A stretch of 64,000 nucleotides of DNA from Dyella sp. C11. GTDB taxonomy: Bacteria; Pseudomonadota; Gammaproteobacteria; Xanthomonadales; Rhodanobacteraceae. The notes beneath the pieces are model-generated. The model was not told the origin of the DNA and searched no databases. It saw nothing but the letters and a program-made list of their open reading frames with translations. The stretch is from positions 149,737-213,736 of the forward strand of contig NZ_QAVX01000006.1 of assembly GCF_003121485.1 (NCBI RefSeq), read 5' to 3'. Made by a program: the position numbers and the translations under genes. This document shows, one piece after another, positions 9,882 to 30,987 of this stretch. How positions within the stretch are numbered: position 1 is the first letter of the stretch; each line of letters opens with the position of its first letter.

Positions 9882-10403
9882 ATGAGCAAAGTCGGTGCCA
9901 AGATCAAAGAAGAATTCCTGAAGATGTAGCCGCCGACCATCTTCTTCTTCGTCATGCTCAACATCGTGCTGCTGGTGCGCGCACTGTTGACCCGCAACAC
10001 GGGTCTCTCCGTACCCACTTTTGCCACCGTGGCGATCTCCTCGCTCATTCTCGGCAAGGCCGTGCTGCTGGCGAACATGCTGCCTTTCATCAACCGCTTC
10101 CCCGAGAAACCGCTGATCTGGAACGCCGCATGGAAGACGGTGATCTACAGCGTCGTGGCCACGTTCATCCATTACCTCGAACGCCTGCACGAATTCTGGA
10201 AGGAAACGCATGACCTTGGCGCCGCCAATCACGCCATGCTTACGCAGATGGTCTGGGGGCATTTCATTGCCATCGAGATCCTGCTGCTGGTACTCATCTT
10301 CAATTACTGCGTGTTTGCCGAACTGGCACGCGTGATCGGCGTCGCCAGGATGAAGGCCATGTTCATCGGGCCGATACCGGCGCAGCCCGGTCCTTCGCGC
10401 TAG
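9882..10403 (+). pseudogene. integral membrane protein interrupted by in-frame TAG
   Basis: ATG at 9882 behind GGAGAAG encodes MSKVGAKIKEEFLKM and then TAG (9927-9929). The same frame continues without a gap as PPTIFFFVMLNIVLLVRALL and on for about 155 more codons to TAG at 10401-10403. The downstream part has three to four hydrophobic segments and polar loops and looks fully conserved, so this is one gene of about 173 codons with a single nonsense codon. Translation could restart at the ATG at 9954, but that would lose part of the first membrane segment. I do not know the function. It could be a recent pseudogene, a base error, or a read-through product. Confidence 0.75.
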
Positions 10404-12118
10404 ATCGCTGCCACGTTGGCGACATCCTGGCGCGTGACGGCCGAGACCGTCGCCTGCCCCGCCCGGATCGTGAGGCATTGATCCGCCACGCACGCCACAC
10501 CCGCGCGATGGGAGACGACCAGCAGGATGGTGGTCGGCAGGCGCCGCCTCAAAACGGAGAGCACGGCCAGCTCAGCTTCCGTGTCCAATGCGCTGGTGGC
10601 CTCGTCCAGCCAGGCCATGCGAGGACGATGCAGCAACACCTGCGCCAACAGCAGGCGCTGCAGTTCCCCACCGGAAAGCCGGCTCGATGAACTGCTGAGC
10701 GCGGTGTCCAGGGCGACGGATACATCGACCAGGCGCTTGTCGAGGCCGACGTCGACCAGTGCCTGCCACATCATGGCATCGGTCGCGTCCGGCGCAGCCC
10801 ATTGCAGGCACTCGCGCACGGTGCGCTGCCACGGGCGAACGCTCTGGCTCACGTACGCACCTTCGCGCACGAGTGTCTTGTAGGCACTGAAATCGATGGT
10901 GCGTTCGCCCATGCGTGCAACGAACGATGCCGGCTCAACCATGCCGGCCAGCACGTCGACGAGGCTGGTTTTCCCGATACCGGAGTCGCCACACACCAAT
11001 GTCAACTCGCCGGGAGTCAGTCGAAGATCGCTCAGCTCCAGCACGGTCGGTGCATCAGTGGTCAGCCTGCGAATGTGCAGGGTGTTGTCGATGGTGTCCA
11101 CCGATGCCGAGCACGGCCCTTCTTCCGTCGCCGAGGCATAGCGCAGCCACAACTCGAAGGCGGGAATGGCCGAACGCAACTGCTGAAGACTTTGCCTCGT
11201 GGATACCAGGTAAGGCAGAAGGCGTCCCAGCAACAGGCAGACGGCAATCAGCGCCGCGCGATCCACGCCATGCCAACGGCTCGCCACGAAGAAGATCGCG
11301 GCGATGCCGAGTGCGGCAAGCATCTCCAGCATCAACCGGCCCGACGCAATCAAGTCCATCTGTCGCCGATAGCCGCGCCCCAACCGCTGCGAGATGTCGG
11401 CGTAGTGTGCCTTTTCGACCGTTTCGCGGCCGAAGGAACGGATATGCCGCCAGCGCCTGGGGAAATCCTCGCTCAACCAGAACAGATGCGTCAGATCCGC
11501 CACGTACTGGCGCGCAACGGCAGCCTGTTCCCGGCTGCTGGCATGCGATGCAGCCCATGCCAATGCCCCGACGAACGGCACCGCCAGGAGCAGCGGCGGT
11601 GACAGCCACAGGGCCATGGCAAGGCTGACCACGGTGGTCAGGCCGGCAACCAGCAATTGCAGCATCACGCTGAAGCCCTGCGTGGCGATCTCGATGTTGT
11701 ACGTGAGCACGTTGGCCACTTCGGCGGAGGTGGCGTCGGCCAGCGAAGACAGCGGCGCGTCGATCAACCGTGCGTGCACCGTCTGGCGCAAGTACATGCC
11801 GTATCGGCTCGCCAAACGAGCACCCACGCGCGCCGCCTGCCATCGAAGCAGCGCAAAACTCGCGGAAATGCCGAGGAATACCGTCGCCTGCATGGCGGGA
11901 TCGCCATGCACCAGCCAGCCGAATCCGGCGGGCAGCGGCTGGTCAGGTTCCACCAGCGGCGCCAGGGACACGGCGGCGACGCTGCCAGTGAAAGCGCTGC
12001 CCAGCGACAGCGCGACGTACCAGACGATGCCGCCCAGGCCAAGGCTTGCCAACGTGGCAAAAAAGGGCCGCGACAGACCACGGACCTGCTCACGCGATCG
12101 CGCGTTTCCGGCCTGCAT
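10400..12118 (-). CDS. ABC transporter, fused permease-ATPase
   Basis: 572 residues. Six membrane helices lie in about residues 15-320, with an ATPase domain at about 350-560: Walker A GDSGIGKTS, signature LSGGELQRLL, Walker B MAWLDEAT and H-loop VVSHR. It is a half-size exporter that probably homodimerises. The arrangement resembles peptide or lipid exporters in natural-product clusters. It lies 189 bp downstream of the HprK-like kinase on the same strand, and its stop codon overlaps the stop of the convergent membrane-protein gene (CTAG). The substrate is unknown. It may export a product of the HprK/radical SAM module. Confidence 0.92.
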   Translation of the reverse strand: MQAGNARSREQVRGLSRPFFATLASLGLGGIVWYVALSLGSAFTGSVAAVSLAPLVEPDQPLPAGFGWLVHGDPAMQATVFLGISASFALLRWQAARVGARLASRYGMYLRQTVHARLIDAPLSSLADATSAEVANVLTYNIEIATQGFSVMLQLLVAGLTTVVSLAMALWLSPPLLLAVPFVGALAWAASHASSREQAAVARQYVADLTHLFWLSEDFPRRWRHIRSFGRETVEKAHYADISQRLGRGYRRQMDLIASGRLMLEMLAALGIAAIFFVASRWHGVDRAALIAVCLLLGRLLPYLVSTRQSLQQLRSAIPAFELWLRYASATEEGPCSASVDTIDNTLHIRRLTTDAPTVLELSDLRLTPGELTLVCGDSGIGKTSLVDVLAGMVEPASFVARMGERTIDFSAYKTLVREGAYVSQSVRPWQRTVRECLQWAAPDATDAMMWQALVDVGLDKRLVDVSVALDTALSSSSSRLSGGELQRLLLAQVLLHRPRMAWLDEATSALDTEAELAVLSVLRRRLPTTILLVVSHRAGVACVADQCLTIRAGQATVSAVTRQDVANVAAI

Positions 12119-12307
12119 GACTACGGAACCGCGCGACGATGAGCCCGCATCCGCCGCGGCACAATGGGCACCTGATGACAGTGCAGAAGGACACCTCGAC
12201 CCGTTTGAGCTCCCATGCGGGTGAGTGCGGGTTGAAACGCGACGGGTTGCGTCCTTTGCCGGAAAAGCGAGTTTCAGCCGGGGCGTCGCCCTCAGCTTGA
12301 ACGGAAA

Positions 12308-13327
12308 TCAGCCCAGCAGGCGCTTGACCGCATCCACCGAGGCGAAGGGGTTGGTCCCGCGTCGCAACTCATACGCTCCCCACTGCTTCACTTTCGCCAC
12401 AAAACCATCCCAGCCAGGCCGGGAGGCGGCGTAAGGCTGTTCGGCAGCGAGCCTTGCGGAAATCTCCTGCTCGGACATCGCCGTGATCAGCGCCTCCCCT
12501 TCCTGCGCATATCGACGGGATGCAAACACCACGCAGGCCACATCGAGCGGTCCTTGCGCCAGATGGCCACGGCCACCGCGAAGATCCACTTCGTATTTCT
12601 CCACGCCGCTGCGACGGCGAATCACCGGGGAACGCTCCACGTCATGTCGAAAGCCATCATCGCCCAGCAACTGAAGTGTGCCCGGCGTCACGTGCAGGTA
12701 GTTGGCAACGCCCAACGCCTGTCCCCCCTGCGCATGCACGAACACCGCATCCTCGGAAAGAAACTCCAGTCCCGCCATCCATGCATGCAGGGCGAGCGTG
12801 GATTTCCCGGCGCCGCTCGCTCCCATGACCAATGCACCGCGCCCATGCCAGCCGACGCAGGCCGCATGCAACGGCACCAGGCCAAGAGCACGCGTCGCCA
12901 ACGTGAACACGGTGAACTCGATCAACTCGTAGCGCAGGTGATACGGGCGCGCCAGCATGTCGGGCGAGGCCACGATCAGCGCACGGCGCTGCTGCGGGAA
13001 CAACACCGCGTAGTTTGACGCATCCATCACGCCGCACAGGAAGCCGGCGCCCGACTGCATCTGCACCAGGGGCGGTTCGTTTTCGGCAACCTGCCGTGCC
13101 GGCGACAAGCGCAATTCGATCTGGAACGCGGGCGCGATGCCGGGCAACAGCTGTGACGGCAGGCCGCCATAGGCCATCGCCACCACGTCGAGCAGCGCTG
13201 CATGATCGCTGGAAAAGCGGAACTGACCGCCCAGCACCTGCACGTCCATCGCATGCCGTTCGGCCGTCCGTTCAGCAAAGGGATCGGGACACATTTCGTC
13301 CGCGGAGAAATTCATCGTCTGCGCCAT
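12308..13327 (-). CDS. HprK-like P-loop kinase (HprK-related kinase family)
   Basis: 339 residues. The C-terminal half resembles the kinase core of HPr kinase/phosphorylase, with Walker A GASGAGKS at residues 169-176 and an acidic SEDAV segment after it. The HPr-binding N-terminal domain and PTS genes are absent, so HPr is not the expected substrate. HprK-like kinases occur in lasso-peptide clusters and in exopolysaccharide/exosortase loci, usually near NTP_transf_5 proteins as here. Start chosen at the ATG at 13327; the Shine-Dalgarno is weak. It is divergent from the radical SAM gene (202-bp gap). No PqqD-like partner is visible. Confidence 0.85.
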   Translation of the reverse strand: MAQTMNFSADEMCPDPFAERTAERHAMDVQVLGGQFRFSSDHAALLDVVAMAYGGLPSQLLPGIAPAFQIELRLSPARQVAENEPPLVQMQSGAGFLCGVMDASNYAVLFPQQRRALIVASPDMLARPYHLRYELIEFTVFTLATRALGLVPLHAACVGWHGRGALVMGASGAGKSTLALHAWMAGLEFLSEDAVFVHAQGGQALGVANYLHVTPGTLQLLGDDGFRHDVERSPVIRRRSGVEKYEVDLRGGRGHLAQGPLDVACVVFASRRYAQEGEALITAMSEQEISARLAAEQPYAASRPGWDGFVAKVKQWGAYELRRGTNPFASVDAVKRLLG

Positions 13328-13529
13328 GGTGGTCCATCGTCGATCAGCGGCGATGTGATAGCACAAGGTTCCGCGACACGACATCGAAATATTTTCGTTA
13401 CACACCGCAACCCATGCATCGAGCCATGGCACTCACCTGGCACGAGCGTTGAACGCTGGCGGCCGGGTGGCCGGCCTGCGGTGGAAGCGCCGGAGCAGTT
13501 TGCCCCACGGTTATCGAGGCTCTCCCGAC

Positions 13530-15008
13530 ATGCTAACGATCCAGGTCGGCCATTCCTATTTCCTCCGGTTCGACCGCAAGCAATGGGAACGTGGCAAGCC
13601 GTATCCACCGCTCGCCACCATGCAGGTGGCTGCCCTGCTACGACGCATGGGCCATGGCGTATCACTGTTCGACGCCATGCTCGCGGAAGGCGTGGACGAC
13701 TACGCCACGTCGCTGCACGAAGCAGCGCCCAGTGTCGTCGTGATCTACGAAGACAATTTCAACTACCTCACCAAGATGTGCCTTGGGCGCATGCGCGAAG
13801 CCGCCTGCGAAATGATCGCACTGGCGCATGCGAGGGGTGCGCGCGTGATCGTGGCGGGTTCCGATGCGTCGGACCAGCCGGAGGCTTTTCTGGCGGCGGG
13901 TGCGGATGCCGTGTTGATCGGCGAAGGCATTGCGCCGTTGATCGAGCTGATCCGTCGACTGGATCAGAATCCTTCCGTGCAGCCGCGCGACTGGGTTGCC
14001 AATCTCAACGGCGTGGCATCCATGATCGATGGACAGCTGCAACTGACGCGCGTGGGCGCCGTGCCACCCGACCCGCGCATCGTTGGCCACCCTGCGTGGG
14101 ACCTGGTGGACATCGCACGCTACCGCACGTTCTGGCGTGAACGACATGGCTACTTCAGCCTGAACATGGCGGCTTCCCGCGGCTGCCCCTTCCGTTGCAA
14201 CTGGTGTGCAAAACCCATCTGGGGCAACCACTACAACCGTCGCACCGCCGAAGACGTCGCGGCGGAAATGACCTATCTCAAGCACACCTACCAGGCCGAC
14301 CATATCTGGCTGGCCGATGACATCTTCGGATTTCATGTGGATTGGGTGGAGGCATTCGCCGCGCACGTGAACGCATCCGGCGGCTCGATTCCCTTCACCA
14401 TCCAGACGCGCGCCGACCTGATCAGCGAACGCATGGCCACCGCGTTGCACCATGCCGGTTGCGCAGAAGCGTGGATCGGCGCGGAGAGCGGCAGCCAGCG
14501 CGTGCTGGATCACATGAACAAGGGCACCAAGGTCGAGGATCTCATCGTCGCCCGCGAGCGGCTGGGCGCCGTCGGCATTCGGGTCGGCTACTTCATCCAG
14601 CTCGGCTATCTCGGTGAACAACTCGATGACCTGAAAGCCACGCGCGACCTCATTACGCGCGCCGCACCGGACGACATCGGCGTGAGCGTGTCCTATCCGC
14701 TGCCCGGCACGCGCTTCTACGAGCAGGTGAAAGCGCAGCTGGGCGAAAAAACACACTGGCAGGACAGCGACGACCTGGCCATGATGTTCCAGGGCGCGTA
14801 CGACTCCGAGTTCTACCGCCACGTGCGCGACCTGCTGCATGAGCAGGTGATCGTGCAACAGTGGAAAGTGGTGGGCCACACTGACCGACATCACCAGGCG
14901 TCCCGCGCGCTGGATGCACGATGGGATGCGCTGGTGGCTACCGAGGCCGTGCACCGCACGACCGCGCCGGAAGTCGTGCTGCGGTCGCGGACCACGTGCC
15001 ATGTCTGA
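13530..15008 (+). CDS. B12-binding domain radical SAM protein
   Basis: 492 residues. The N-terminal region (about 1-165) has the fold of a cobalamin-binding domain, ending in the IVAGSDASDQP and VLIGEG strands. The radical SAM barrel carries C219-x3-C223-x2-C226 (CPFRCNWC) for the 4Fe-4S cluster. The canonical B12 DxHxxG motif is not evident, which is common in this family. Members perform methylations, cyclisations or other radical steps on lipids, nucleosides or peptides. The ATG at 13530 follows GAGG. Its stop overlaps the start of the nucleotidyltransferase gene, so the two are coupled. Confidence 0.9.
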   Translation: MLTIQVGHSYFLRFDRKQWERGKPYPPLATMQVAALLRRMGHGVSLFDAMLAEGVDDYATSLHEAAPSVVVIYEDNFNYLTKMCLGRMREAACEMIALAHARGARVIVAGSDASDQPEAFLAAGADAVLIGEGIAPLIELIRRLDQNPSVQPRDWVANLNGVASMIDGQLQLTRVGAVPPDPRIVGHPAWDLVDIARYRTFWRERHGYFSLNMAASRGCPFRCNWCAKPIWGNHYNRRTAEDVAAEMTYLKHTYQADHIWLADDIFGFHVDWVEAFAAHVNASGGSIPFTIQTRADLISERMATALHHAGCAEAWIGAESGSQRVLDHMNKGTKVEDLIVARERLGAVGIRVGYFIQLGYLGEQLDDLKATRDLITRAAPDDIGVSVSYPLPGTRFYEQVKAQLGEKTHWQDSDDLAMMFQGAYDSEFYRHVRDLLHEQVIVQQWKVVGHTDRHHQASRALDARWDALVATEAVHRTTAPEVVLRSRTTCHV

Positions 15009-16236
15009 GCACGACACGTTGCCGCCATTGGCCACGCTCAAGGCGGGCCTGCAGCGCACCACCGAAGCGCTGGCCAACGAGTTGGGCAACCCCACCGGCA
15101 CCACCCCAGGCTGGACGGATCTCGAATGGCGGCTCGCCGCCGCCGTGGCCGCGGCACACGGCGTGGCACCGTTGCTGTCGGTCTATCCACGCTGGCAGAA
15201 CCCAAGTTGGTCGCGCTTTCTGGAAAGCCAGTACGAACATGTGGCGCAACGTCATCAACGCACTCATGCCCTGCTTGCGCGCATCGATGCAGACGCCCGT
15301 GCAGCCGGTATAGCGTTGGTTGCATTGAAAGGGTCGGCCCTGCATGCGCTGGGTATCTACACGCCTGGCGAACGCCCCATGGCGGATATCGACCTGCTGG
15401 TGCGTGATGCCGACATGGAACGCGCAGGCGCCTTGCTGGAAAAGCTTGGCTACGGCACGTCGTTCAACATGTGGAAACACCGCGTCTACAAGCCGTGTGG
15501 CGAATCACCCACCTTCGGGCTGGGCGAACACCGCGATACACCCATCAATATCGAACTGCACACGCGCATCCAGGAGCGCCTGCCCGTGGCGACGGTGGAT
15601 ATCACCGACCGCATCTACCCACGCGCGCCCGTGCCGGGCATCCATGCCTACCCTTCGACGGGTGCCTTGATGAGCCATCTGTTGCTGCACGCGGCGGGTA
15701 ACCTGTGCAGTCGTTCAATACGCCTCATTCATCTCAATGACATTTCGCTGTTGGCTTCACGCATGGTGCGCAGCGACTGGCACGAGCTGTGGGGAGGCGA
15801 CGCCGATGTATCGCCATGGTGGGCGCTGCCACCGCTGCAGCTGGTGTCGCGCTACTACCCCGATGCGGTTCCGTCCGCACTGCTGTACGAACTGGCCTTC
15901 GATTGTCACGCGCTCTTGCGTACGGTTTCCCGGCACCGGACGCTTACGCAGTGGTCGTGTTCGGAATTGTGGCTGCATGCCTGGTCCGGCTTCGAGTGGG
16001 CGCGCACCACTCGCGAACGTGTTCACTACATCTTCAATCGCGTTCGCCCCAGCAGGGAAGCGCAGCAAGAGCGCGATGACATGATTCGCACGCAGCTGTG
16101 GTTGCAGGGTGCGCCGTGGGTCAGGACGGGACAGATGCGCCGCGTGTTGACGTGGCTTACGCACCCTGTGCCGCGCATGGATACGTTGTATGTGTTGCGG
16201 GCTGCGCTAGGGTCTTCATTGGCTGCTTGGTCGTGA
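15001..16236 (+). CDS. NTP_transf_5 family nucleotidyltransferase
   Basis: 411 residues. The minimal nucleotidyltransferase core is shown by VALKGSALHALGIY followed by RPMADIDLLVRD, the KG...DIDLLV signature of PF14907. Members sit in peptide and exopolysaccharide clusters, often with an HprK-like kinase. They are thought to transfer a nucleotidyl group to a protein or metabolite, but few are characterised. The start overlaps the radical SAM stop by 8 bp. A large inverted repeat follows the gene. Target unknown. Confidence 0.88.
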   Translation: MSEHDTLPPLATLKAGLQRTTEALANELGNPTGTTPGWTDLEWRLAAAVAAAHGVAPLLSVYPRWQNPSWSRFLESQYEHVAQRHQRTHALLARIDADARAAGIALVALKGSALHALGIYTPGERPMADIDLLVRDADMERAGALLEKLGYGTSFNMWKHRVYKPCGESPTFGLGEHRDTPINIELHTRIQERLPVATVDITDRIYPRAPVPGIHAYPSTGALMSHLLLHAAGNLCSRSIRLIHLNDISLLASRMVRSDWHELWGGDADVSPWWALPPLQLVSRYYPDAVPSALLYELAFDCHALLRTVSRHRTLTQWSCSELWLHAWSGFEWARTTRERVHYIFNRVRPSREAQQERDDMIRTQLWLQGAPWVRTGQMRRVLTWLTHPVPRMDTLYVLRAALGSSLAAWS

Positions 16237-16413: not shown

Positions 16414-17526
16414 TCAGCGTCCCGCCCCTGCGGTCAGCAATTGAAGATAGAGCGCCTCGAACGTGCGCGCGGTGTAGTCGGCATCTTCCGTTACCGCCTT
16501 GCGTTGCGCCGCCACGGCCAGGCGAAGCCGAAGATCGTCATTCGACAGCACGCGGTCGATGGCATCGGCCAGCGCGGCCCAATCACCGACAGGCACCGCA
16601 AGCGCCGACGTGGGCGACCATTCCGCGATATGCCCTACGGCCGTGCCCACCGTGGGTATGCCCATCACGGCGGCTTCCAGCAATACCAATGGCCCGGCTT
16701 CGTGCAGGGACGACATCACCAGCAAGTCGGCTTCTTCCATCAAGGGCCTCAATTCGCGCTGCGTCTTGAAACCGTGGAAGCGCAGCCGGGCATCCAGGCC
16801 CAGCTCGTGTGCAAGCCGCTGCATTTCACCATCAAGCGTATCCACACCCACGATGTCCATGCTGAAGTCCACGCGCGCCTCGACCAGCACGGCGAGCGCG
16901 CGTAACAGCGTGGCCTGGTCCTTGACCCGGTTGAGGCTGGCCACATGGATCAGACGCGCACAACCATTGCGCCGCCCACGTGGCGGCAAGGGAGGCCAAA
17001 GGCGCAGATCCACGCCTAGCGGTACGCGCCTTGCCTGCAGACCCAGCGCACGTAGCGAATCGATGATGGGCGAACTGGCCGCCGTTATCGCGTCAGCAGC
17101 GCGCAGTACCAGTGCCTCACGAAGACGCCCCTTGAAGAAGCGTCGGCCGCCGTAGTCGATGTCATGCAACGCCACCAGCTCACCGCCCGCAATGTGCACC
17201 ACGCTGGGAATCCGCAGCAGCATGGCCGCGCACACCGCCACGAAACTGCATGAACCCGAAAAAATGGCGTGCACCAGGTCAAAGGGAGCACGACGATGTT
17301 CCTGTCGGATGGCATCGATGGCACGAAGTCGCGACCATCCGTCCCCGATGTTGTGGATGCGCGCACCGGCAAGCTGCCAGCAGTCGGCCGTCGCCTCCTG
17401 CCTCAGCGCAAACACATGCACGTCGTGTTCGTTGGCCAGACGACGTATCAAGGCGAGGAATACAGGGATCACGCGGAACTCGCCCGTGCGATCGACACCA
17501 CCGGGAACCACCAGCGCGATCTTCAC
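16414..17526 (-). CDS. glycosyltransferase family 4
   Basis: 370 residues with a GT-B fold: N-terminal VKIALVVPGGVDRTGEF, C-terminal nucleotide-sugar site HVASLNRVKD, and the E-x7-E motif in EAGPLVLLE. It is a retaining glycosyltransferase that adds a sugar during assembly of the surface glycan. The start is GTG at 17526, overlapping the upstream GT4 stop by 4 bp (GTGA) and preceded by GGGAG. It is the last gene of the minus-strand glycan operon. Donor and acceptor are unknown. Confidence 0.92.
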   Translation of the reverse strand: MKIALVVPGGVDRTGEFRVIPVFLALIRRLANEHDVHVFALRQEATADCWQLAGARIHNIGDGWSRLRAIDAIRQEHRRAPFDLVHAIFSGSCSFVAVCAAMLLRIPSVVHIAGGELVALHDIDYGGRRFFKGRLREALVLRAADAITAASSPIIDSLRALGLQARRVPLGVDLRLWPPLPPRGRRNGCARLIHVASLNRVKDQATLLRALAVLVEARVDFSMDIVGVDTLDGEMQRLAHELGLDARLRFHGFKTQRELRPLMEEADLLVMSSLHEAGPLVLLEAAVMGIPTVGTAVGHIAEWSPTSALAVPVGDWAALADAIDRVLSNDDLRLRLAVAAQRKAVTEDADYTARTFEALYLQLLTAGAGR

Positions 17527-18650
17527 GATGCCGCTCCCATCCGCGCGGTGCTCAATTCCTGATACGCCTGCTCCCAACGTCGCCCAACAGCCTCGAGCGA
17601 CAACGCCCGATCGAAATGGGCACGCACTTCCGCGGACGATGTGCGCGCGGCGGCGGCCTGCACCATGGTCCGTGCCAGTGCACTTGCATCACCGCGCTCC
17701 CAAAGACGCCCCACGTTGCCAACCAGGGCCCGAAACGACGGGATATTCGTCACCACCGGCATCACGCCGCAGGCCATGGCTTCCAGCAGCGCATAGCCAC
17801 AACTTTCCGCATGGCTGCCCGAAACGAAGATGTCGGCAGCACGCATCAGCGACTGCACATGCGGATGCGGCACCTTGCCGAGCAGGTGCACGCGATCGAC
17901 CAGGCGCGCATCGCCCTCGATGCGTCGGCGCACCTGATCCAGCAACGGCGCGCGGCCGAAAGCACACCACAATTGCAGGCCCGGCAAGGACTCGCTGGCC
18001 TGCGCGACGCCTTCCAGTACCGTAAGGGGATCCTTGCCGGATTGCAGATGGCCGACCCACACCACGCACGGATCGCCGTACAGCCCGGTCTCCGACCACG
18101 CGCTTGCGCGGCTGCCCGGCGTGAACCGGCTGGTGGATTCGGGCACCACGAAGATGCGTGTCGATGGCGCAAACAGCGCAGCGGATACGTAGGGCTTCGC
18201 CAGCTCTGGGGCCGTGAATGCCACGCCCTGCGCAGCCGCGTACCAGCGCCGCCAGCGCGGGTGACGCCAGCGCGAGGGCACGCGATCCGCGTGGTCCTGC
18301 AGCAGGATCGGCAAACGCGGCAGCTCGCGTGCCAACGCGTGCACATCCGCCGCACAACCCAGGCTGTGCACGTGCGCCACGTCGGCGCCCAGTTCTCCAA
18401 GCAGATGCGCCACGCCACGCGCGCGTCCAGCGACGCCAGCGTGGCCCGCCGGCATGAAGCGGTAGTCCACGCCGTTGTGCTTCATCCTCCCCTCCCGCGT
18501 CGCCATCTGGATGACGCTCACCTGCACGCCTGCACTGGCCGGGGCTTCGGCGATGTCCACCAGCGACGGCCAATGCGCAAGCATGTCGGCGGGTGAAAAA
18601 CCCTCCGGCGCCGGGAAATAGTTGATCTGGGCGACATGCAGGGGACGCAC
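17523..18650 (-). CDS. glycosyltransferase family 4
   Basis: About 375 residues, GT-B fold. The C-terminal half has VVWVGHLQSGKDP and the E-x7-E motif ESCGYALLE. The start is uncertain: GTG at 18650 gives VRPLHVAQINYFPAPEG, a normal GT4 N-terminus, 50 bp after the preceding gene. An ATG at 18749 would overlap that gene and add 33 atypical residues. It is paired with the GT4 gene downstream by a 4-bp overlap. Confidence 0.88.
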   Translation of the reverse strand: MRPLHVAQINYFPAPEGFSPADMLAHWPSLVDIAEAPASAGVQVSVIQMATREGRMKHNGVDYRFMPAGHAGVAGRARGVAHLLGELGADVAHVHSLGCAADVHALARELPRLPILLQDHADRVPSRWRHPRWRRWYAAAQGVAFTAPELAKPYVSAALFAPSTRIFVVPESTSRFTPGSRASAWSETGLYGDPCVVWVGHLQSGKDPLTVLEGVAQASESLPGLQLWCAFGRAPLLDQVRRRIEGDARLVDRVHLLGKVPHPHVQSLMRAADIFVSGSHAESCGYALLEAMACGVMPVVTNIPSFRALVGNVGRLWERGDASALARTMVQAAAARTSSAEVRAHFDRALSLEAVGRRWEQAYQELSTARMGAAS

Positions 18651-18699
18651 GGTCAGTGCCTGCGAAGGAAGCGTCGGCGCAACAGCATGAAAGCGCCGC

Positions 18700-20214
18700 T
18701 CAAAGGCCGGATACCTGCGGCATGCGCAAGCGCACCAGCCGGTTGGCAAGGTTCAATTCCCAGGGGCGATCGTACCTGCGCAAGCGGTATCGCCACGATG
18801 CTGCGGCCGCCAGCGTCCGTTTCGCCCACGGCGGCGAGCGCAGATCCTGCACGGTCGGGTAGCGGCAACGCAGCACCGTGACGAAATCGTGGATGCGCTG
18901 GCGAAGCTTGTCGTTGACCCAGGGCGCGTCCGCATGACAGGCGTAGTCCACCCATTGCTTCTGCGTCCATTCTTCGGGCGTGGAGGGGAACACCACGGGA
19001 TTGCCGTGGATGTCCAGCAGCGGCGTCGCACGCCGCTTGCCGTGATCCTTTTCGTGCCGGCTGCTGTCGGGTAGCGGCGTGTAGATGTACACGATGATTT
19101 CCGACTGCGGATTGATGCCCTTCAACTAGCGGATGAACTCGAACGTATGCTCGGTTTCTTCTTCCGTGTTTTCCGGCGGCGCGACCATGAACGACAGTTC
19201 CGGAATCACGCCGTGACGGCGGCACAGCTCCGCCACTTCCAATGTCTGATCGGGACGCGTGCCCTTGCGGATTTCCTTCAGCATGGCCGGGCTGGCCGAT
19301 TCCGCACCGATATACGCCATGCGCAGTCGACTCTTGCGCACCAGTTTCCACGTGCTTTCGGACAGGTTGAGCAAGGCATCGGCTCGCGCGTAACACCACC
19401 ATGGCATCTCGAAGCGGGCCATGATTTCAAGCAGCGGAATCATGTCCTGTTCGCGGTCGAAGAAGTTGTGGTCGAAGTACTGGATGGAATCGGCACCCAG
19501 GCCGTGCTTGAGGTATTTGAGGTCGCGCTCGAGTCGCGCCAGGGGAGGCAAGGCCGTGGCACCGCCGAACATAGCCGCCACGCCGCAGAACGTGCAGCGA
19601 AAACGGCAACCCACCGATGCCTGGTGCGCCACCGTGCGCCGCCCGAGGAACGTGCGAGCGAGATAACGGCGCGGATCGCCCAGCTTCTCGTACGGCAACA
19701 CCACGGACGGCCCGTTGCGGGAGAACGGCCGACTCGGGTTGTGTACCACGCCGCCCTCGCCCTTCCACGAGAGCCCGTTCACCGTGCCAAGCTTCGCCGT
19801 GTCGCCTGCATGCAATGCGGTGATCAACTCGGGAAAGCTGTCTTCTCCCTGCCCACGGATCGCATAGTCCACGTACGGCGCCGACAGCGCGGTATCGGTG
19901 TAAAGCGTGGGGAAATAGCCGCCCCATACAATGGGCGTGTCAGGTCGATGCGCACGTATGGCGCGCGATACCGCAATGGCCGGTTCAATTTGCGGACCAC
20001 CCATCACGCTGATGCCCACGGCCGTATGGGCACGCTGGTCCAGCGCATGCAAGGTGCGATCGATGAAGTCGCGATCCATGTTGCCGTCGATGATCGAACT
20101 GCTTCCTTCGCGATCCAGCGTGGTCGACAGATGCAGCAGCGACAGCGGGAACCTTGCGCTCGAACGCGAGGTAATCGTGGGATTGATCAGCAGCGTGTGC
20201 GGTGCGTGGTTCAT
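18700..20214 (-). pseudogene. B12-type radical SAM protein interrupted by in-frame TAG
   Basis: Residues from MNHAPHTLLINPTITSRSSA through a B12-like N-terminal domain and the CRFRCTFC cluster motif run to FEFIR, then TAG (19126-19128). The frame continues at once as LKGINPQSEIIVYIYTPLP for 142 codons to 18700. The segment after the stop is the normal C-terminal part of this HpnJ/BchE-like family, so the gene is one unit of 504 codons with a single nonsense codon. A TTG directly after the stop is a weak possible restart. An alternative start at 20238 (ATGA overlap with the methyltransferase stop) would add 8 residues. The cobalamin/SAM enzyme may methylate or rearrange a lipid or sugar. Confidence 0.8.
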
Positions 20215-20234
20215 GGCGTCCGGGTGCCGGGGAA

Positions 20235-20933
20235 TCATGGCTTGCGCCACAACTGGAAAACGAGGGCCACGGGCACGTCGAGCGCCACGCGGTCGAAGTG
20301 CGCGCCGGGCGGAATGTCCGCCGGGTCGAGCATGGGTTCGAGTACGCAACCGATCTCCAGCCCTTGCGCCGCACACGCGGCGTGCCAATGGCTGTAGTGG
20401 TGCGCGGTGTGGCGCACGGCATAACGCCGGCCTTCCGCCTTGAAGTCGCGCAGCCAGCCCAGGGCATGGCCGATGGGATGCACATCGCTGCACAGCACCA
20501 TGCCGCCGGGCTGCGTGACGCGGCACAACTCGGCAAGCACGGGTTCCAACTGCTCGACATGGCCCACCGCCAGTCCACACACGGTGAGATCGGCCCACGC
20601 ATCGGACACGGGCAGTGCATCCAGGCTGCCCTGCATGAGTTCAATGGATGCATGTCGATGCGGCGCCGCCAGTTCGTCCTGCGCGCGCACCAGCATGTCC
20701 GGCGAAAGATCCACGCCCGCCACGCGCGCAGCACCGCGCCGTATCGCATGGCGCATGTAGCGCCCGGTGCCACAGCCGGCGTCGAGCACATTGCGCCCGC
20801 CCATGTCGTGTGGCAGCAGGCCGAGCATGGCGCGTTCTTCCGCCAGCATCACCGGGTTGTGTGCCCGTGCCGGGTAACTTGGTGCCCACAGCGCGTATGC
20901 GTCGGCAGGATCGAGGATCGGCGTGGTAAGCAT
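20235..20933 (-). CDS. class I SAM-dependent methyltransferase
   Basis: 232 residues. Motif I VLDAGCGTGRYM (about residues 49-60), an acidic residue ending strand 2 (VAGVDLSPDML) and the LCRVTQPGGMVL segment show a Rossmann methyltransferase of the UbiE/COQ5-like type. Its start codon overlaps the amidohydrolase stop by one base (TGATG). It sits between the amidohydrolase and a B12-type radical SAM gene in the glycan operon, so a small-molecule, sugar or lipid acceptor is likely. Confidence 0.9.
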   Translation of the reverse strand: MLTTPILDPADAYALWAPSYPARAHNPVMLAEERAMLGLLPHDMGGRNVLDAGCGTGRYMRHAIRRGAARVAGVDLSPDMLVRAQDELAAPHRHASIELMQGSLDALPVSDAWADLTVCGLAVGHVEQLEPVLAELCRVTQPGGMVLCSDVHPIGHALGWLRDFKAEGRRYAVRHTAHHYSHWHAACAAQGLEIGCVLEPMLDPADIPPGAHFDRVALDVPVALVFQLWRKP

Positions 20934-22162
20934 CAGCAGCGCGCCTCGGCGATGGTGGCAGGTGCGGTGAAAGCCGCGCGCGCGGTCGCCAGTTCAAGTC
21001 CGGGCTCCAGCGCCAGCACGGCGGTATCGGCCAGGGCCTTCGCCAGCAACTTGGGACGTCCATCCAATACGACGCGTACCGTCTCCACGCCGGCGACGTC
21101 AAACCATTCGGCAAAATCGGGATCGGCGATGCGCGGCACGCCGCCGCGCACCACGGCGCGAATCTGGTTGCGTTCGATGCCCACCAGGTTCCACGCCTCG
21201 TGGCCGCCGCGATCCTCCACGATCACCAGGTCCGCATGTGCACCCGGTTGCAACGTGCCGTGCCACGGCATGCGCAGCAGCCGGGCACTGTCGTCGGTAA
21301 CCAGCCCGAGCAACTGTTGCGGCGACAGTTCACAGCGAACCGCTGCATGGCGCAGCTCTTCCAGCAGGTCACGCGAACCGCTCAACCGTGAATCCGTACC
21401 CAGCGCCAGCCTGCCTGTCTCGGCGAGGCGACGCGGTTGCAGCGTGCGTCCGAGCAGGCGTTCATTGCTGGACGGGCACCACACCACACCCGCACCGCAG
21501 GCGAGGATACGGTCGATGTCCTGTTCGCGCAGTCCCACGCCATGCACCAGCACCGTGTGCGCGGCGAGGCAACCGAGCTCATCGAGTCGCGCAAGTTCCG
21601 CTTCGGCCACGGCGTCGGTGCCTTCGGCGAGGTGAATGATCCACGGCCTATCCACCGGTGTCTGCGCAAAGCTCTGCTGCACCGGGGGCCCGTACGACGT
21701 CCAGCCCAGCGCATAGCTCCAACCGTGGTCGCGCAACAGCGCCACGGGGAAATCCACATCATCCAGCGCGGCATGCCATGGATCGTGGTGGGCGACGCAC
21801 GTAGTGCCCGCCAGCAGATTCTTCAAACCACCATGGCGCAAACGCGTGGCCTTGGGCACGCGCAACGCGGCAACGACCGCGGGATTGGCGAAGTGCGACT
21901 GAAACGCCTCGATCCACGCGTAGCTGTTGGGAAACGCGCCCGCATCCAGCGCAGGCACCGCGTTGACCTGCAAATGATCGTGCGCGTTGATCAGGCCGGG
22001 AAAGATCAGGTGATCGCGCAGGTCGACCCGGTACGCCCATGCCGGCAGCGAGGCGTCGATGCGGCCGCCGCGAATCTGCAGCGGTGCGCGCGTTACGCCG
22101 TCGCGCGTGACGCACGCCGCTCCGCACAGGCTGGCATGGGTTCGGGCCGACCGCGTGTCCAC
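20933..22162 (-). CDS. amidohydrolase family metal-dependent deaminase/hydrolase
   Basis: About 409 residues. The metal-binding HxH is in NAHDHLQ. Further ligands are suggested by the His of VLVHGVGL and the Asp of LGTDSRLSG, as in the TrzA/cytosine-deaminase-like branch of the amidohydrolase superfamily. The ATG start possible at 22228 would overlap the methyltransferase upstream, so GTG at 22162 is preferred. Such an enzyme is not a standard part of glycan assembly. Here it is flanked by two methyltransferases, suggesting a tailored small group. Substrate unknown. Confidence 0.87.
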   Translation of the reverse strand: MDTRSARTHASLCGAACVTRDGVTRAPLQIRGGRIDASLPAWAYRVDLRDHLIFPGLINAHDHLQVNAVPALDAGAFPNSYAWIEAFQSHFANPAVVAALRVPKATRLRHGGLKNLLAGTTCVAHHDPWHAALDDVDFPVALLRDHGWSYALGWTSYGPPVQQSFAQTPVDRPWIIHLAEGTDAVAEAELARLDELGCLAAHTVLVHGVGLREQDIDRILACGAGVVWCPSSNERLLGRTLQPRRLAETGRLALGTDSRLSGSRDLLEELRHAAVRCELSPQQLLGLVTDDSARLLRMPWHGTLQPGAHADLVIVEDRGGHEAWNLVGIERNQIRAVVRGGVPRIADPDFAEWFDVAGVETVRVVLDGRPKLLAKALADTAVLALEPGLELATARAAFTAPATIAEARC

Positions 22163-22166
22163 GCTA

Positions 22167-23006
22167 TCACCGCCTGCGCATGACAATAAGGAAGTGGTCG
22201 CCCATGTCGCGCAATAACGGAAAGGCACCGAGCTTGTCGTCGAGGCGACCGAGGCGCTCGTACCAATGCTGGCGTCGGCGATACCTGTCCACCAGATACG
22301 GCGGCGGCATGAACAGGCTCAGCGCGCGATAGCTCTCCAGCGAGAACTGCCCGGCAAAGGCGCGATAGAACTCACGCGGCAGGTAGTAGTAAGTCCAGAT
22401 GGTGTGCTTGTTCATGCCCACCGCCGCCGGGCCACGCGTGCCACGCACACTGGCGCGGCGAAAACGCCCGCGCAGCGCGTAATGCCCCAGTTCCCACGGG
22501 CAGATGCGACCCATCGCGGAGAACACCAGCTTGCCGCCGGGCTTCAGCAGGCGTGCGCACTGCTCGGCGACGGCAGCCAGGTCCGGCGCACAATTGAGCG
22601 GGCCGAAGTTGGAATAGATGCCGTCGAACGATTCCTGCAATTGGTCCAGCTGCTGCACGCCAAGGTGCATCGCCACCACGTTCGATTCCACGCCCGCCAC
22701 CGCGGCGCGTGAACGCGTGCGGCCCACCATGGCGGGCGACCAGTCGGTGGCCACCACCTGGTAACCGCGGTGCGCGAATTCCAGGGCATCCAGGCCCGTC
22801 CCGCAACCGATGTCCAGCAGTTGCGAGCCAGCGGGTACTTCGTGACACACCGTGTCCCACAGCGTGGTGCGCATGCGCTGGATCAATTCGTTATTGCCGC
22901 GCGGGCCATCGTAATCGGCGGCCACGCTGTCGAAGGCACGCTGCGTGTCGAGCAATTGCGCGTCGTTCAAGGAAGCCTCCATCGGGCGTCCGCTTGGTTG
23001 TCCCAT
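22167..23006 (-). CDS. class I SAM-dependent methyltransferase
   Basis: About 279 residues. Motif I LLDIGCGTGLDALEFA, the acidic ATDWSPAMV strand and the LLKPGGKLVFS segment give a clear Rossmann methyltransferase. The C-terminal third, with aromatic stretches (HTIWTYYYLPREFYRAF), resembles methyltransferases of O-antigen loci. Start at ATG 23006 without a strong Shine-Dalgarno; ATG 22982 is possible. The next gene starts 4 bp after its stop. Confidence 0.87.
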   Translation of the reverse strand: MGQPSGRPMEASLNDAQLLDTQRAFDSVAADYDGPRGNNELIQRMRTTLWDTVCHEVPAGSQLLDIGCGTGLDALEFAHRGYQVVATDWSPAMVGRTRSRAAVAGVESNVVAMHLGVQQLDQLQESFDGIYSNFGPLNCAPDLAAVAEQCARLLKPGGKLVFSAMGRICPWELGHYALRGRFRRASVRGTRGPAAVGMNKHTIWTYYYLPREFYRAFAGQFSLESYRALSLFMPPPYLVDRYRRRQHWYERLGRLDDKLGAFPLLRDMGDHFLIVMRRR

Positions 23007-23090
23007 CACTGGCTTACGGCACCCGTTTGCAGATTCATCGAGGCAACGCGTTCCCGTGCCGGGCGACGCGTCATGTGCAGGTAGGTGCCT

Positions 23091-23948
23091 TCACGCGTGC
23101 GTTTGGTTGAATGTCACGGTGGTGACGCGGGTGCGCCGCATGGCGTTGCGCACAATCGCGGCGAACGCGCCCAGCGTAAGCCCGAACAGCGCCCCGATAC
23201 CCCAGATCAGCGCGAGATTGGGAAATGCCGGCCCCTTGGGCACGTACACGGGCCACATCAGCGAGGTGTCATACGTGTAGTTCGGGCTGAGACGGATGCT
23301 CAGGTCGCCACGCACCTGGCGAAGATCGCGAATCTGCGTATCCGTGGCCGCCAGCAGCACGGAGGCCACACCGGCATCCTGCGCGGTACCGTGCGCACCT
23401 CCCGGCGTGGCCTGCTGGGTCAACTGCTTGCGCTGGTTTTCGGCATTGGCCAGATCCGACTGCACTTCACCCAGGCGCGCCTGAGCCAGGGTCAGCGGCG
23501 TGGCCAACAGTTTCTGATGGAGCGTCTTCAGCTGGGCCACGGTCGCTTCAGCAAATTGCCGCGCCTGTTCGGGCGACCAGCCACGTACGGAAAACTTCAC
23601 CAGCGGTCCTGCGTAGGGCAGCGGTTCGAGTTTCACGCTCTTTCGATACAGTCGCGCCTCAGTTGCATCCTCCGGGATATGCAGGCTCGCCAATACCTGG
23701 TTCTGGAACGGCACCAGCTGAAGGCGCTCCAGCACGCGCGCCAGCGGCTCCACCTTGGGGTCCTGCCCCGGAGGAATGCCGCCCACCTGCCCTATCTGGA
23801 TATACGCCGTGGCTTCCCACTGGGGGCGCGCCGCATGCGAAAACGCGAACGTCGCGACCAGCACCACCAGCAACCCAGCGAGAAACCACACCCACTCGCG
23901 GATGAAGATCCGCCACATGTCCACTACGTACACTTCGTCTCGTTGCAT
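23091..23948 (-). CDS. Wzz-like chain-length determinant protein
   Basis: 285 residues. An N-terminal membrane helix (about 18-38, WFLAGLLVVLVATFAFS), a long periplasmic helical region and a C-terminal membrane helix (about 240-262) preceded by the Pro-rich PVYVPKGPAFPN. This is the polysaccharide co-polymerase (Wzz) layout, without the cytosolic kinase domain of Wzc. It controls glycan chain length together with the Wzy-like polymerase, whose gene ends 11 bp upstream. Confidence 0.88.
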   Translation of the reverse strand: MQRDEVYVVDMWRIFIREWVWFLAGLLVVLVATFAFSHAARPQWEATAYIQIGQVGGIPPGQDPKVEPLARVLERLQLVPFQNQVLASLHIPEDATEARLYRKSVKLEPLPYAGPLVKFSVRGWSPEQARQFAEATVAQLKTLHQKLLATPLTLAQARLGEVQSDLANAENQRKQLTQQATPGGAHGTAQDAGVASVLLAATDTQIRDLRQVRGDLSIRLSPNYTYDTSLMWPVYVPKGPAFPNLALIWGIGALFGLTLGAFAAIVRNAMRRTRVTTVTFNQTHA

Positions 23949-23959
23949 GATCGTCTGGC

Positions 23960-25138
23960 TCACGGAGGGGTTGGCGTGGGCATGCCGCCGTTGGGATCGG
24001 CATGATCGAAGGGAGTGCCGGCATTGCCGCGTCGACTGGGCAACAAGGCCGCCACCAGCTGCAGCAGCAGGCACAGCACGATGAAGCCCGCATTGGTCCA
24101 GGTGAATGCCTGGGGCGCGAACGGCGCCATCAGGCAGGTATAGGCCACGCGCAGGAAAATCAGCAGCCCGAACAGCGGCACCGCGGGCTGCATGCGCCGC
24201 ACGCTCCACAGCAGCAGCGCGTACAGCGCCGCCATGGAAGCGACCGCACCGCCTGGGCCCAGCGCCATCAGGAACGGAAAGAATTCCGTGCCCACATTGA
24301 CGTTGGACGCATCCAGGGGAATGCCCGTGCCGGCGGTGACGATCGAACCCGCCATCGGCACCAGCTGGTTGATCAGGAAGTGCGTGTCCCGATAGTGCTT
24401 GGCGAGGATCGATGCGAAGTTGTACGGCCCGGCACTGGCGTACAGCAGCAACCACTTCACGCCCTGCGGCAATGCCTTGTACGTGTCGCTGAAGGGAAGC
24501 GTGACGTAATCGAGCGTGCCGGAACGCAGGATGCCGAGTACCGAAAACACCACGGCGCCGCCCAGCGCGAGCAACAGCACCCGCTTCCACGGCAACGGCC
24601 TGGCATCATCGCGACGGAACAGGATCACCAGCGCCACCGAAAACAGCGCGGCGAAGATGCGGTTGCGATCAATGACGAGCACGGGAAAGACGAATCCCGC
24701 GATGACCAGCGCCGCACGCAGCCCGCGATGGCGTGCGCAAAGCAAGCCGATCGGTGGCAGCACCCAGCACATGTCGGACACATGCCGAATGTGGTCGCGG
24801 CCGCCTTCCATGTTGGCGTACGACGAAGGTGCCGAAAACAACGGCACCGGAAACAGCACCAGATCGAGCACGCAGAACACCACGACGAGCCCGGCGAACA
24901 GCAGCGACACGAAAGCGTCCCGGGTGCCTGTGTAATCGCGGCTGCGAAAGACCGCGCTGCGCGGTACGCGAATGCCGGCCACGGCGTCGAAGGCGATCAT
25001 GGCCACACCTGCCGTGGCCAGCAGCAGGAGACCTTCCAGATAGTCCGGTGGCAGATCGTAGGTAAGCAGCGTGAGTCCGCAAGCCACCAGCAGCGGCACG
25101 CCCAGGTAGAACGACGGCCATCGAAGTAGCGTCTTCAT
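23960..25138 (-). CDS. Wzy-like O-antigen/EPS polymerase, membrane protein
   Basis: 392 residues with about ten hydrophobic segments and a large periplasmic loop (about residues 225-300). Sequence similarity within Wzy proteins is low, so the call rests on topology and on its place between a Wzz-like gene and a GT2 gene. It would link repeat units on the periplasmic face. The ATG at 25138 overlaps the GT2 stop by 4 bp (ATGA). Confidence 0.75.
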   Translation of the reverse strand: MKTLLRWPSFYLGVPLLVACGLTLLTYDLPPDYLEGLLLLATAGVAMIAFDAVAGIRVPRSAVFRSRDYTGTRDAFVSLLFAGLVVVFCVLDLVLFPVPLFSAPSSYANMEGGRDHIRHVSDMCWVLPPIGLLCARHRGLRAALVIAGFVFPVLVIDRNRIFAALFSVALVILFRRDDARPLPWKRVLLLALGGAVVFSVLGILRSGTLDYVTLPFSDTYKALPQGVKWLLLYASAGPYNFASILAKHYRDTHFLINQLVPMAGSIVTAGTGIPLDASNVNVGTEFFPFLMALGPGGAVASMAALYALLLWSVRRMQPAVPLFGLLIFLRVAYTCLMAPFAPQAFTWTNAGFIVLCLLLQLVAALLPSRRGNAGTPFDHADPNGGMPTPTPP

Positions 25139-26088
25139 GCCTGCGCCACCAGGCGATGGGCCTGACGACGCCGCGTCCGCGCCATCAACAGCAACAAGGC
25201 GTAGCCGGCCATGTGCAGGGCCACCGACCACACGCGACGTTCCAGAAAAGCAATCTTGGCGCCTATGTGATGCGACTGGGCCAACAGCAGCGTGCGGTCC
25301 GGCTCATCGAACAGCACCGCGCGCCGTATCGCGACATCGCGCGCTTCCATCAGGTTGCGAATGCGCGCGTGGGTGTCGCGCGTGCGGCTGAGGTTGCTGC
25401 CGTGGATGCGGTAGGCACACACATTGCGGTCGATGAAACCGATGGCATCGTGGGCCGCCAGGCGCAGGAAAAAGTCCCAATCGTCGATGCGCAGGCTCTC
25501 GCTCCAGCCCGCCACCGTTTCCAGCGCACGCCGGCGCACCAGCGTCACCGGACCGCCGATCGCCCATTGCGTGATAACCGCGCGGCGAATGCCTTCATCC
25601 GTGCGATACAGGCGCTTGTCGGCGTGGTGAAGATCGCGCATGCCGCTGTGATGCACGCGATGACCGTCCTGATCCACCACTTCCGAATCGCCGATCACCG
25701 CCCACTTGTTGGGATGCGCCAACAGATAGTCCACCTGTGCATCCAGGCCGCCCGGCAACAGATAGTCATCGCTCGCGCCCAGGCGAAGGAAATCGCCACG
25801 CGCACGCGCGGCCAGTTCGTTGAGCGTGGCAGCCACGCCCTTGTTGCCGCGACGCACGTACTCCACGGGTACATCGTTGCCATGTCTAGCGATCCACGCA
25901 GCGATCCGACAACCGGTATCGTCCGTCGAACCGTCATCGATGATGATGATCTCTTTCGCCGGATAGGGATCTTCCAGCACGCTATCGAGACAGCGCTCCA
26001 CGAAACGCTCGTGATTGAACGCGGGCACCAGCACCGACACCAGCGGCATGGGCGACGCGTTTTCCAGCATGCCGATTTCCATCGTCAT
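25135..26088 (-). CDS. glycosyltransferase family 2
   Basis: 317 residues. GT-A fold signatures are LVSVLVPAFNHERFVERCL, IIDDGSTDDT and the metal-site ASDDYL, followed by RIDDWDFFLRL. A hydrophobic C-terminal segment may associate with the membrane. It is an inverting glycosyltransferase for the glycan repeat unit. Start overlaps the flippase stop by 4 bp. Confidence 0.93.
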   Translation of the reverse strand: MTMEIGMLENASPMPLVSVLVPAFNHERFVERCLDSVLEDPYPAKEIIIIDDGSTDDTGCRIAAWIARHGNDVPVEYVRRGNKGVAATLNELAARARGDFLRLGASDDYLLPGGLDAQVDYLLAHPNKWAVIGDSEVVDQDGHRVHHSGMRDLHHADKRLYRTDEGIRRAVITQWAIGGPVTLVRRRALETVAGWSESLRIDDWDFFLRLAAHDAIGFIDRNVCAYRIHGSNLSRTRDTHARIRNLMEARDVAIRRAVLFDEPDRTLLLAQSHHIGAKIAFLERRVWSVALHMAGYALLLLMARTRRRQAHRLVAQA

Positions 26089-30321: not shown

Positions 30322-30987
30322 TCACAGCGTCACGTCGAAACTGGATCGACCCGGCACCGCCTTGGCCGGCGAACCGACGTAGACCCTGCCCGCCTCGGTG
30401 TCCTTGTGCACCAGCGCGCCGGAGCCGATGACGTTGTCGGAGGCGACCTTCACGTGATCGTTGAAGGTGGTGTTGACGCCGATGAAACTGCTCTCGCCGA
30501 TGTCGCAATAGCCGGAGATCACGGCATGCGAGGCGACGAACACGTGGTCGCGCACGACGGTGCGGTGCCCCACGTGGTTGCCGCTCCACAGGATGCAGTT
30601 GTTGCCGATGCGCACGAACGGCTGGATCACGTTGTTCTCGAAGATGAAGCTGTTTTCGCCGATCTCGGCATTGCGCCAGACGAAGGCGCGCGAACTCACG
30701 TAAGTGGCAAGGCGATAGCCGCGTTGCTTGGCATCCAGGTAGAAGCGCGTGCGCAAGCGATTGAGCTGGCTCGCGGGAATAGCCACGAACGCTTCGACAT
30801 CTTCAGGCGGATAGTGCTGCTCCAGCTCTTCGTACGGCACCACGGGACGACCGGCCAGCACGGGCTGGCTCAGGTATTGGCGTTCGACGCTGAAGGCCGC
30901 AACGTCGTAATCGCTGTCGTGTTCGAAGTATTCGCAGGCGATCTGCGCCAGTTCGCCTGCACCGATCAGGACTAGGCGCTTTGGCAT
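30322..30987 (-). CDS. PglD/NeuD-type sugar acyltransferase
   Basis: 221 residues. An N-terminal Rossmann-like segment (KRLVLIGAGELAQIACEYF) precedes a left-handed beta helix with hexapeptide repeats (NAEIGENSFIFENNVIQPF, ... AKAVPG). This is the PglD/NeuD/QdtC fold. With the aminotransferase in the operon it probably N-acetylates the new amino sugar. Its start lies within the last codons of the FdtA-like gene (16-bp overlap). Confidence 0.9.
   Translation of the reverse strand: MPKRLVLIGAGELAQIACEYFEHDSDYDVAAFSVERQYLSQPVLAGRPVVPYEELEQHYPPEDVEAFVAIPASQLNRLRTRFYLDAKQRGYRLATYVSSRAFVWRNAEIGENSFIFENNVIQPFVRIGNNCILWSGNHVGHRTVVRDHVFVASHAVISGYCDIGESSFIGVNTTFNDHVKVASDNVIGSGALVHKDTEAGRVYVGSPAKAVPGRSSFDVTL

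Follow-up and report, generated by a model that had tools for sequence, protein, structure and literature searches.

A conserved four-gene unit with an HprK-like kinase and an NTP_transf_5 protein beside a Wzx/Wzy-type glycan operon in Dyella sp. C11 and its relatives

A 64,000-nucleotide stretch of the Dyella sp. C11 genome (contig NZ_QAVX01000006.1, positions 149,737 to 213,736; hereafter the window) carries at positions 10400-16236 four intact open reading frames (ORFs) arranged as two divergent pairs, encoding an ABC exporter, an HprK-like kinase, a radical SAM protein and an NTP_transf_5 nucleotidyltransferase. These four genes, referred to here as the module, are one conserved unit: they are linked in a fixed order, occur together across genomes, retain their characteristic motifs and have no peptide-pathway partner found beside them. 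The module combines a kinase/NTP_transf_5 pair lacking PqqD with a radical SAM gene and an exporter, and it is tied to a Wzx/Wzy-type cluster in one lineage. We judge the chances evenly balanced that the four genes serve as the divergent tailoring and export arm of this conserved surface-glycan cluster and are not free-standing. On our best reading, such an arm is lineage-specific.

The source genome comprises 4.73 Mb over 46 contigs. An earlier note on this DNA had described the four genes as two divergent pairs; the ORFs were confirmed and the named families were largely matched. In the family scan the ABC exporter scored above the cut-off for both ABC_tran (68.8 bits) and ABC_membrane (30.6 bits), and the NTP_transf_5 protein (PF14907) reached 103.1 bits against a curated cut-off of 31.2. 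The HprK-like protein stayed below the cut-offs, with 24.8 bits for Hpr_kinase_C (cut-off 33.3), 48.0 bits for HprK_rel_B and 37.3 bits for HprK_rel_A (cut-offs 200). The module radical SAM protein had been called cobalamin-type. Its Radical_SAM domain is above the cut-off (62.2 bits), whereas the B12-binding match (27.7 bits, cut-off 32.1) makes the cobalamin part of that description weaker than stated. Position 13327 is the most likely start of the kinase, and 13530 that of the radical SAM protein, whose ATG at this place is shared by at least 85% of 98 aligned loci.

Characteristic motifs are retained in all four module proteins. The predicted model of the kinase has a predicted local distance difference test (pLDDT) score of 89.7 and matches PEPCK (best E 9.3e-9) and HprK/P (best E 3.3e-5); its P-loop, H154, E192, D193 and R250 are invariant or near-invariant in 58 sequences. 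The NTP_transf_5 model has a pLDDT of 90.5, and K111, G112, D130, D132 and E186 are invariant in 50 sequences, with D130, D132 and E186 as the putative catalytic carboxylates. The module radical SAM protein contains the CxxxCxxC motif, whose C219, C223 and C226 are invariant in 26 sequences. Its profile matches the solved relatives 9ccb, AprD4 (apramycin biosynthetic oxidoreductase 4) and OxsB; AprD4 and OxsB are the best of these besides 9ccb, yet they are distant from the module protein. AprD4 has an aminoglycoside as its substrate. The ABC protein is related to MsbA, BmrA and ABCB1/P-glycoprotein-type exporters. The radical SAM protein is the best conserved of the four, with 212 near-invariant positions, compared to 101 in the ABC protein, 92 in the NTP_transf_5 protein and 55 in the kinase. 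A stop inside the NTP_transf_5 gene was seen in two relatives (G018 and L069).

Each module protein was searched over the same 148 related genomes. The kinase was matched at E ≤ 0.001 in 54 genomes and NTP_transf_5 in 48, with 38 strong matches for each, and the radical SAM protein and the ABC exporter were each matched at E ≤ 1e-40 in 38. Strong matches to all four fall in the identical 38 genomes. The other 110 genomes gave no radical SAM or ABC match at E ≤ 1e-40; at E ≤ 0.001 they held weak, family-level matches to the kinase (16/110) and to NTP_transf_5 (10/110), some of the latter extending over the larger part of the protein with less than 30% identity. The proposal that the four genes act as one unit was thus borne out, and random scatter among relatives was not seen. 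Chance neighbourhood was rejected on the identical presence in 38 of 148. These 38 presences are not independent events, because the block is inherited as one.

The identical divergent order lies on one stretch in 36 of the 38 genomes, the other two being G081, where a contig ends between the kinase and the radical SAM gene, and G057, which is taken up below. A wider set, which draws on 80 named loci, comprises 98 distinct loci that carry both the kinase and the radical SAM gene, with the window included and identical radical SAM DNA counted once; three loci with partial sets (L038, L045, L046) were omitted. All four genes are present in 96 of the 98, always in the same order. The gap between kinase and ABC genes exceeds 400 bases in 14 loci (L036, L047, L054, L056, L057, L058, L059, L062, L074, L075, L084, L086, L098 and L129).

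In a range survey of the best 80 of 380 candidates, the cluster was found in Dyella, Rhodanobacter, Luteibacter, Frateuria, Xanthomonas, several metagenome-assembled genomes (MAGs) of the order and one Hydrocarboniphaga MAG. Within those best 80, the closest named relatives at the locus are Dyella japonica and D. kyungheensis, with 89% identity in the module radical SAM protein. Presence is patchy, and the sampled same-genus genomes G001, G011, G012 and G017 are without the set. An even sample of the class comprised 369 genomes, the window's own included; in the 368 others the module radical SAM protein had no match at E ≤ 1e-90. Profile matches in the full sample numbered 207/369 for the kinase, the listed ones being mostly short P-loop stretches, and 24/369 for NTP_transf_5.

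The module converges on an operon of glycan genes (Table 1). The glycosyltransferase gene at the end of this operon (GT4a) follows NTP_transf_5 in all 38 module genomes, the window counted, and does so directly in 34. GT4a is within reach in 89 of the 97 other distinct loci. Four of the remaining eight are loci with inserts, and the other four are L054, L065, L075 and L120, whose genomes hold the second methyltransferase gene of the operon (MT2). MT2 was found in 8/8 further genomes checked (those four and four more), in some on another contig. The operon's own B12-binding radical SAM gene (rSAM2) was matched at E ≤ 1e-40 in 37 of the 148 genomes, all of them module genomes, G141 being the sole module genome without a match. 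In X. arboricola the gene order is kept as far as FdtA, without rSAM2 and the GNAT-like, uncharacterised and NeuD-type genes. GT4a together with the first methyltransferase gene (MT1) but without rSAM2 occurs in 25 of the 97 loci, all from Xanthomonas, and rSAM2 is present in the Xanthomonas loci L104, L118 and L127.

The earlier note had envisaged an independent, uncharacterised pathway and proposed looking in other genomes for the four genes without the glycan operon. This check came out negative, with GT4a in 38/38, and the module is not separate from the operon. Between the two outcomes that had been offered, a small product or a glycan-linked group, the glycan is preferred, since no case of the module lacking the glycan operon was seen. 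A separate pathway, in which the four genes yield and export their own small molecule (not a peptide) or lipid and are joined to the operon by nothing but locus and inheritance, is unlikely in our estimate. Such independence is suggested by the module's own divergent promoter region, by its convergence on the operon and by the other DNA that can separate the two, whereas one and the same pattern of presence across the 148 genomes, which persists from Rhodanobacteraceae to Xanthomonas, argues against it.

Compared to WzxE/enterobacterial common antigen (ECA)-like Wzx/Wzy clusters, the cluster is alike in its Wzx, Wzz, glycosyltransferases, sugar aminotransferase and FdtA. It differs in that the polymerase is unmatched by family models, the four-gene arm is added and no initiating transferase is present among the genes scanned. 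The cluster Wzx reached 294.6 bits with the WzxE (lipid III flippase) model, below the cut-off of 325, which hints at an ECA-like glycan.

A second family of explanations concerns peptides. In lasso-peptide clusters, HprK-like and NTP_transf_5 proteins occur together; the kinase K phosphorylates a C-terminal serine, and the resulting phosphate receives one or two hexoses from the nucleotidyltransferase N, according to the available part of PMC8498205. This co-occurrence, which the earlier note had cited, also appears in two loci from another family of the order: L141, with PqqD, Asn_synthase, NTP_transf_5 and two Hpr_kinase_C proteins (Hpr_kinase_C under the cut-off), and L142, with Transglut_core3, Asn_synthase and two NTP_transf_5 proteins. 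In G122 and G134, Transglut_core3 lies beside the pair on the same contigs. These four cases serve as controls, since expected lasso partners do show where present.

At the module itself such partners were not found. No PqqD over the cut-off lies near the module in the 38 genomes, one of which has a distant match over the cut-off. Sub-threshold PqqD matches occur in four more module genomes, including one in G007 (19.6 bits, cut-off 23.4) about 8 kb from the module. The lasso protease (B2-type, Transglut_core3) was likewise absent near the module in all 38 genomes; Transglut_core3 matches exist in 34 of them, all on other contigs or more than 50 kb off. In 96 loci neither the gaps nor the flanks revealed a conserved precursor-like ORF, although a very short or distant gene could escape. 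The gap ORF clusters considered as precursors were rejected, being kinase or radical SAM gene ends in various frames, the AhpC/TSA-like gene and DNA blocks. No asparagine-synthetase-like cyclase was found among the conserved clustered neighbours, with no genome search aimed at the family. The statement that the module has no PqqD partner or obvious precursor therefore stands, and a lasso or other RiPP (ribosomally synthesized and post-translationally modified peptide) pathway at the module was rejected, as neither PqqD, the lasso protease nor conserved small ORFs were found there.

A RiPP-like variant would have a peptide, encoded elsewhere or unrecognised, that is phosphorylated, capped, radically altered and exported by a set merely lying beside the operon. 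Radical SAM enzymes often modify peptides, and the G007 match also speaks for this variant, as do the HprK-like/NTP_transf_5 pairs of lasso clusters (L141 and L142; PMC8498205, available part). We nevertheless hold it to be quite improbable, given the missing PqqD, the distant Transglut_core3 genes, the non-precursor sources of the gap ORF clusters in 96 loci and the fixed link of the module to the glycan operon.

Related gene sets were compared individually. The pseudomycoidin and paeninodin genes, with an HPr kinase homologue K and a nucleotidyltransferase N, are alike in combining kinase, nucleotidyltransferase and ABC exporter in the available part of PMC8498205. They differ in that the lasso protease, cyclase and precursor were not found at the module, which has a radical SAM gene and the glycan operon instead. 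An HprK-type kinase is also known from a related bacterium: the gene of HprKXcc of the Xanthomonas phosphotransferase system clusters with ptsI, ptsH and ptsN genes, as the accessible text of PMC6916182 describes. The module kinase differs from it in its fixed glycan setting and in showing partial HprK similarity only. HPr-rel-A sets, which consist of PqqD, HprK-related kinase A and a nucleotidyltransferase, belong to exopolysaccharide loci. They share with the module an HprK-like kinase and an NTP_transf_5 protein beside glycan genes. However, the module kinase is far below the TIGR04352 cut-off (37.3 vs 200 bits), and the module has no PqqD over the cut-off and adds an exporter and a radical SAM gene.

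Across Gammaproteobacteria, HprK-like kinases and NTP_transf_5 proteins are repeatedly found close together. Thirteen loci outside the lineage were picked for weak kinase or NTP_transf_5 matches. A PqqD-like match is present in five of them (L141, L143, L144, L147 and L153), and none of the 13 matched either radical SAM protein in single-sequence phmmer searches, which distant relatives can escape. L153, with matches to PqqD, kinase, glycosyltransferases and NTP_transf_5, may be an outside example of the HPr-rel-A set. At L146:9030-12302 the protein directly after an NTP_transf_5 protein is ABC exporter-like, and no kinase was matched there. In the open PubMed Central (PMC) literature, judged by titles and abstract openings, no description of the cluster was recognised; PMC3130047 and PMC6722718, in their available parts, do not concern it.

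Because peptide partners are absent and the glycan operon is present, the pair, with the lasso-peptide enzymes K and N as its precedent, is inferred to act on a lipid-linked glycan or its precursor. The HprK-like protein, using ATP, would phosphorylate a hydroxyl of a lipid-linked oligosaccharide or precursor. The NTP_transf_5 protein would then cap the kinase-made phosphate with a sugar, or nucleotidylate a sugar hydroxyl. The module radical SAM enzyme could alter the same unit by a carbon-centred reaction, for instance C-methylation or dehydration, and the ABC protein would flip the amphipathic product alongside the cluster Wzx. In this specific scheme a lipid-linked sugar would receive from the pair a glycosyl or nucleotidyl group, attached through a phosphodiester and radically modified, and would be flipped by a dedicated MsbA-like ABC protein. 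The scheme is put forward tentatively and is more doubtful than the placement of the genes in the cluster.

Kinase/methyltransferase caps set chain length in some O-antigens, and the kinase and NTP_transf_5 protein could similarly add a phosphate-linked cap to the growing glycan and thereby set its length. The kinase, two methyltransferases and a Wzz-like protein do share one cluster. However, to our knowledge chain-end capping comes from ABC-dependent and not Wzx/Wzy-dependent pathways, and the ABC exporter of the module has its domains fused, unlike a two-gene polysaccharide transporter. Capping thus appears rather improbable.

Several observations weigh against assigning the four genes to a tailoring and export arm of the glycan cluster. 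The module and the operon are convergent and do not form one transcript. Why an ABC flippase would be needed is not explained, given the Wzx already in the cluster, and no initiating phosphoglycosyl transferase was found among the scanned cluster proteins, the rest of the genome being unsearched. GT4a is separated from NTP_transf_5 by 6.9-10.7 kb in G019, G051, G059 and G063; the two inserts scanned hold unrelated genes (VgrG, PLD and DUF6396 in L134, a protein kinase in L137). The ABC gene is out of reach in L073 and in L037, the latter being the G057 case, in which the kinase has no adjacent ABC gene and two ABC matches lie on another contig. In 12 loci an AhpC/TSA-like ORF lies between kinase and ABC genes, and Pfam confirmed the family in both gap ORFs scanned (L036 and L047). 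The NTP_transf_5 model gave no fold match at E ≤ 0.001. Its top six sub-threshold matches are ANT(2'')-Ia and LnuA, enzymes that act on antibiotic hydroxyls; these count in favour of the glycan reading, as do the PEPCK and HprK/P matches of the kinase model.

The divergent intergenic region between the kinase and radical SAM genes probably contains their promoters, as suggested by its conserved DNA blocks. In 14 of the 98 loci the blocks GTGATAGCACA, GACATCCAAATATTT, GCAACC and GGCACTCAC, some of them varying, lie at fixed spacing without a coding signature. These loci are mostly from Dyella, and GCAACC and GGCAC-type blocks reach further loci. One block resembles a CRP/Clp-type site. A plus-strand frame in this gap is shared by 52 loci, with the core block in 14/98; in those 14, third codon positions are no less conserved than others, and nine contain an internal stop. 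The 52-locus frame is read as a regulatory element because of the fixed-spacing blocks, the lack of third-position relaxation and the stops, as examined in the 14 loci.

Table 1. Features of the module and of the facing glycan operon in the window.
Feature	Position	Strand	Basis or remark
ABC exporter, fused membrane and ATPase domains, MsbA-like	10400..12118	-	ABC_tran, ABC_membrane over cut-off
HprK-like kinase	12308..13327	-	Weak family matches; predicted model
Divergent intergenic region, conserved DNA blocks, probably promoters	13328..13529	.	Alignment of 98 loci
Radical SAM protein, sub-threshold B12-binding domain	13530..15008	+	Radical_SAM over cut-off
NTP_transf_5 nucleotidyltransferase	14998..16236 (start approximate)	+	103.1 bits
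GT4a glycosyltransferase, end of facing operon	16414..17577	-	Glycos_transf_1
GT4b glycosyltransferase	17523..18749	-	Glyco_trans_1_4; order conserved
rSAM2, operon B12-binding radical SAM gene	18700..20433	-	Interrupted by in-frame TAG 19126-19128
Methyltransferase MT1	20235..20933	-	Methyltransf_11
Amidohydrolase	20933..22228	-	Amidohydro_1
Methyltransferase MT2	22167..23009	-	Methyltransf_25
Wzz-like chain-length protein	23091..23990	-	Wzz 30.5 bits, over cut-off, on longer ORF 23091-24590
Putative polymerase, by position only	23960..25231	-	No Pfam/NCBIfam family; order conserved
GT2 glycosyltransferase	25135..26088	-	Glycos_transf_2
Wzx-type flippase	26085..27590	-	Polysacc_synt over cut-off
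DegT sugar aminotransferase	27332..28456	-	DegT_DnrJ_EryC1 384.1 bits
FemAB/GNAT-like protein	28444..29376	-	Acetyltransf_6 over cut-off
Uncharacterised protein	29369..30313	-	Weak beta-1,2-mannobiose phosphorylase match, 22.8 bits vs cut-off 450
NeuD/PglB/VioB-type sugar acetyltransferase	30322..30987	-	191.2 bits, cut-off 160.8
FdtA-like sugar ketoisomerase	30972..31502	-	FdtA 159.3 bits

The upstream piece of the interrupted rSAM2 gene retains both Radical_SAM and B12-binding domains above the cut-off, and uninterrupted copies of the gene exist in relatives; its TAG may be a mutation or a sequencing error. A second premature stop lies about 10 kb away, at 9927-9929, where an in-frame TAG cuts the gene at 9882-10403 (+) just left of the module. 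Uncut copies of the latter gene are present in L024 and L130, and L023 and L051 have an open frame across the place of the TAG. Between NTP_transf_5 and GT4a, an inverted repeat at 16271-16353, with arms of about 29 bases, looks by eye like a repetitive extragenic palindromic (REP) element or a miniature inverted-repeat transposable element (MITE). In G019 the corresponding interval (L134:8502-18179) spans about 9 kb with VgrG, PLD and three DUF6396 genes. The 3' part of NTP_transf_5 is repeated at the flank of this DNA, which looks like the entry of a cassette at the end of that gene. Beyond the operon, the ORF at 31857-33650 (+) encodes a conserved protein adjoining FdtA in Dyella (L138) and X. 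arboricola (L132), with an outer-membrane look and a c-type haem motif by eye. Neither this ORF nor its antisense shadow matched a Pfam family. Its better conserved frame led us to take the plus strand as coding, and the gene was treated as flanking. Nothing in Rfam reached the gathering score within 9000-34500.

In the literature we met, the only substrates of a kinase/NTP_transf_5 pair are lasso peptides (PMC8498205, available part). The pair described here has no recognisable peptide partner, and its position within a glycan cluster of soil bacteria is constant. The same cluster is present in many Xanthomonas species, where its product would be a surface or secreted glycan. If the tentative phosphodiester scheme is true, it would represent a new way of decorating bacterial surface polysaccharides.

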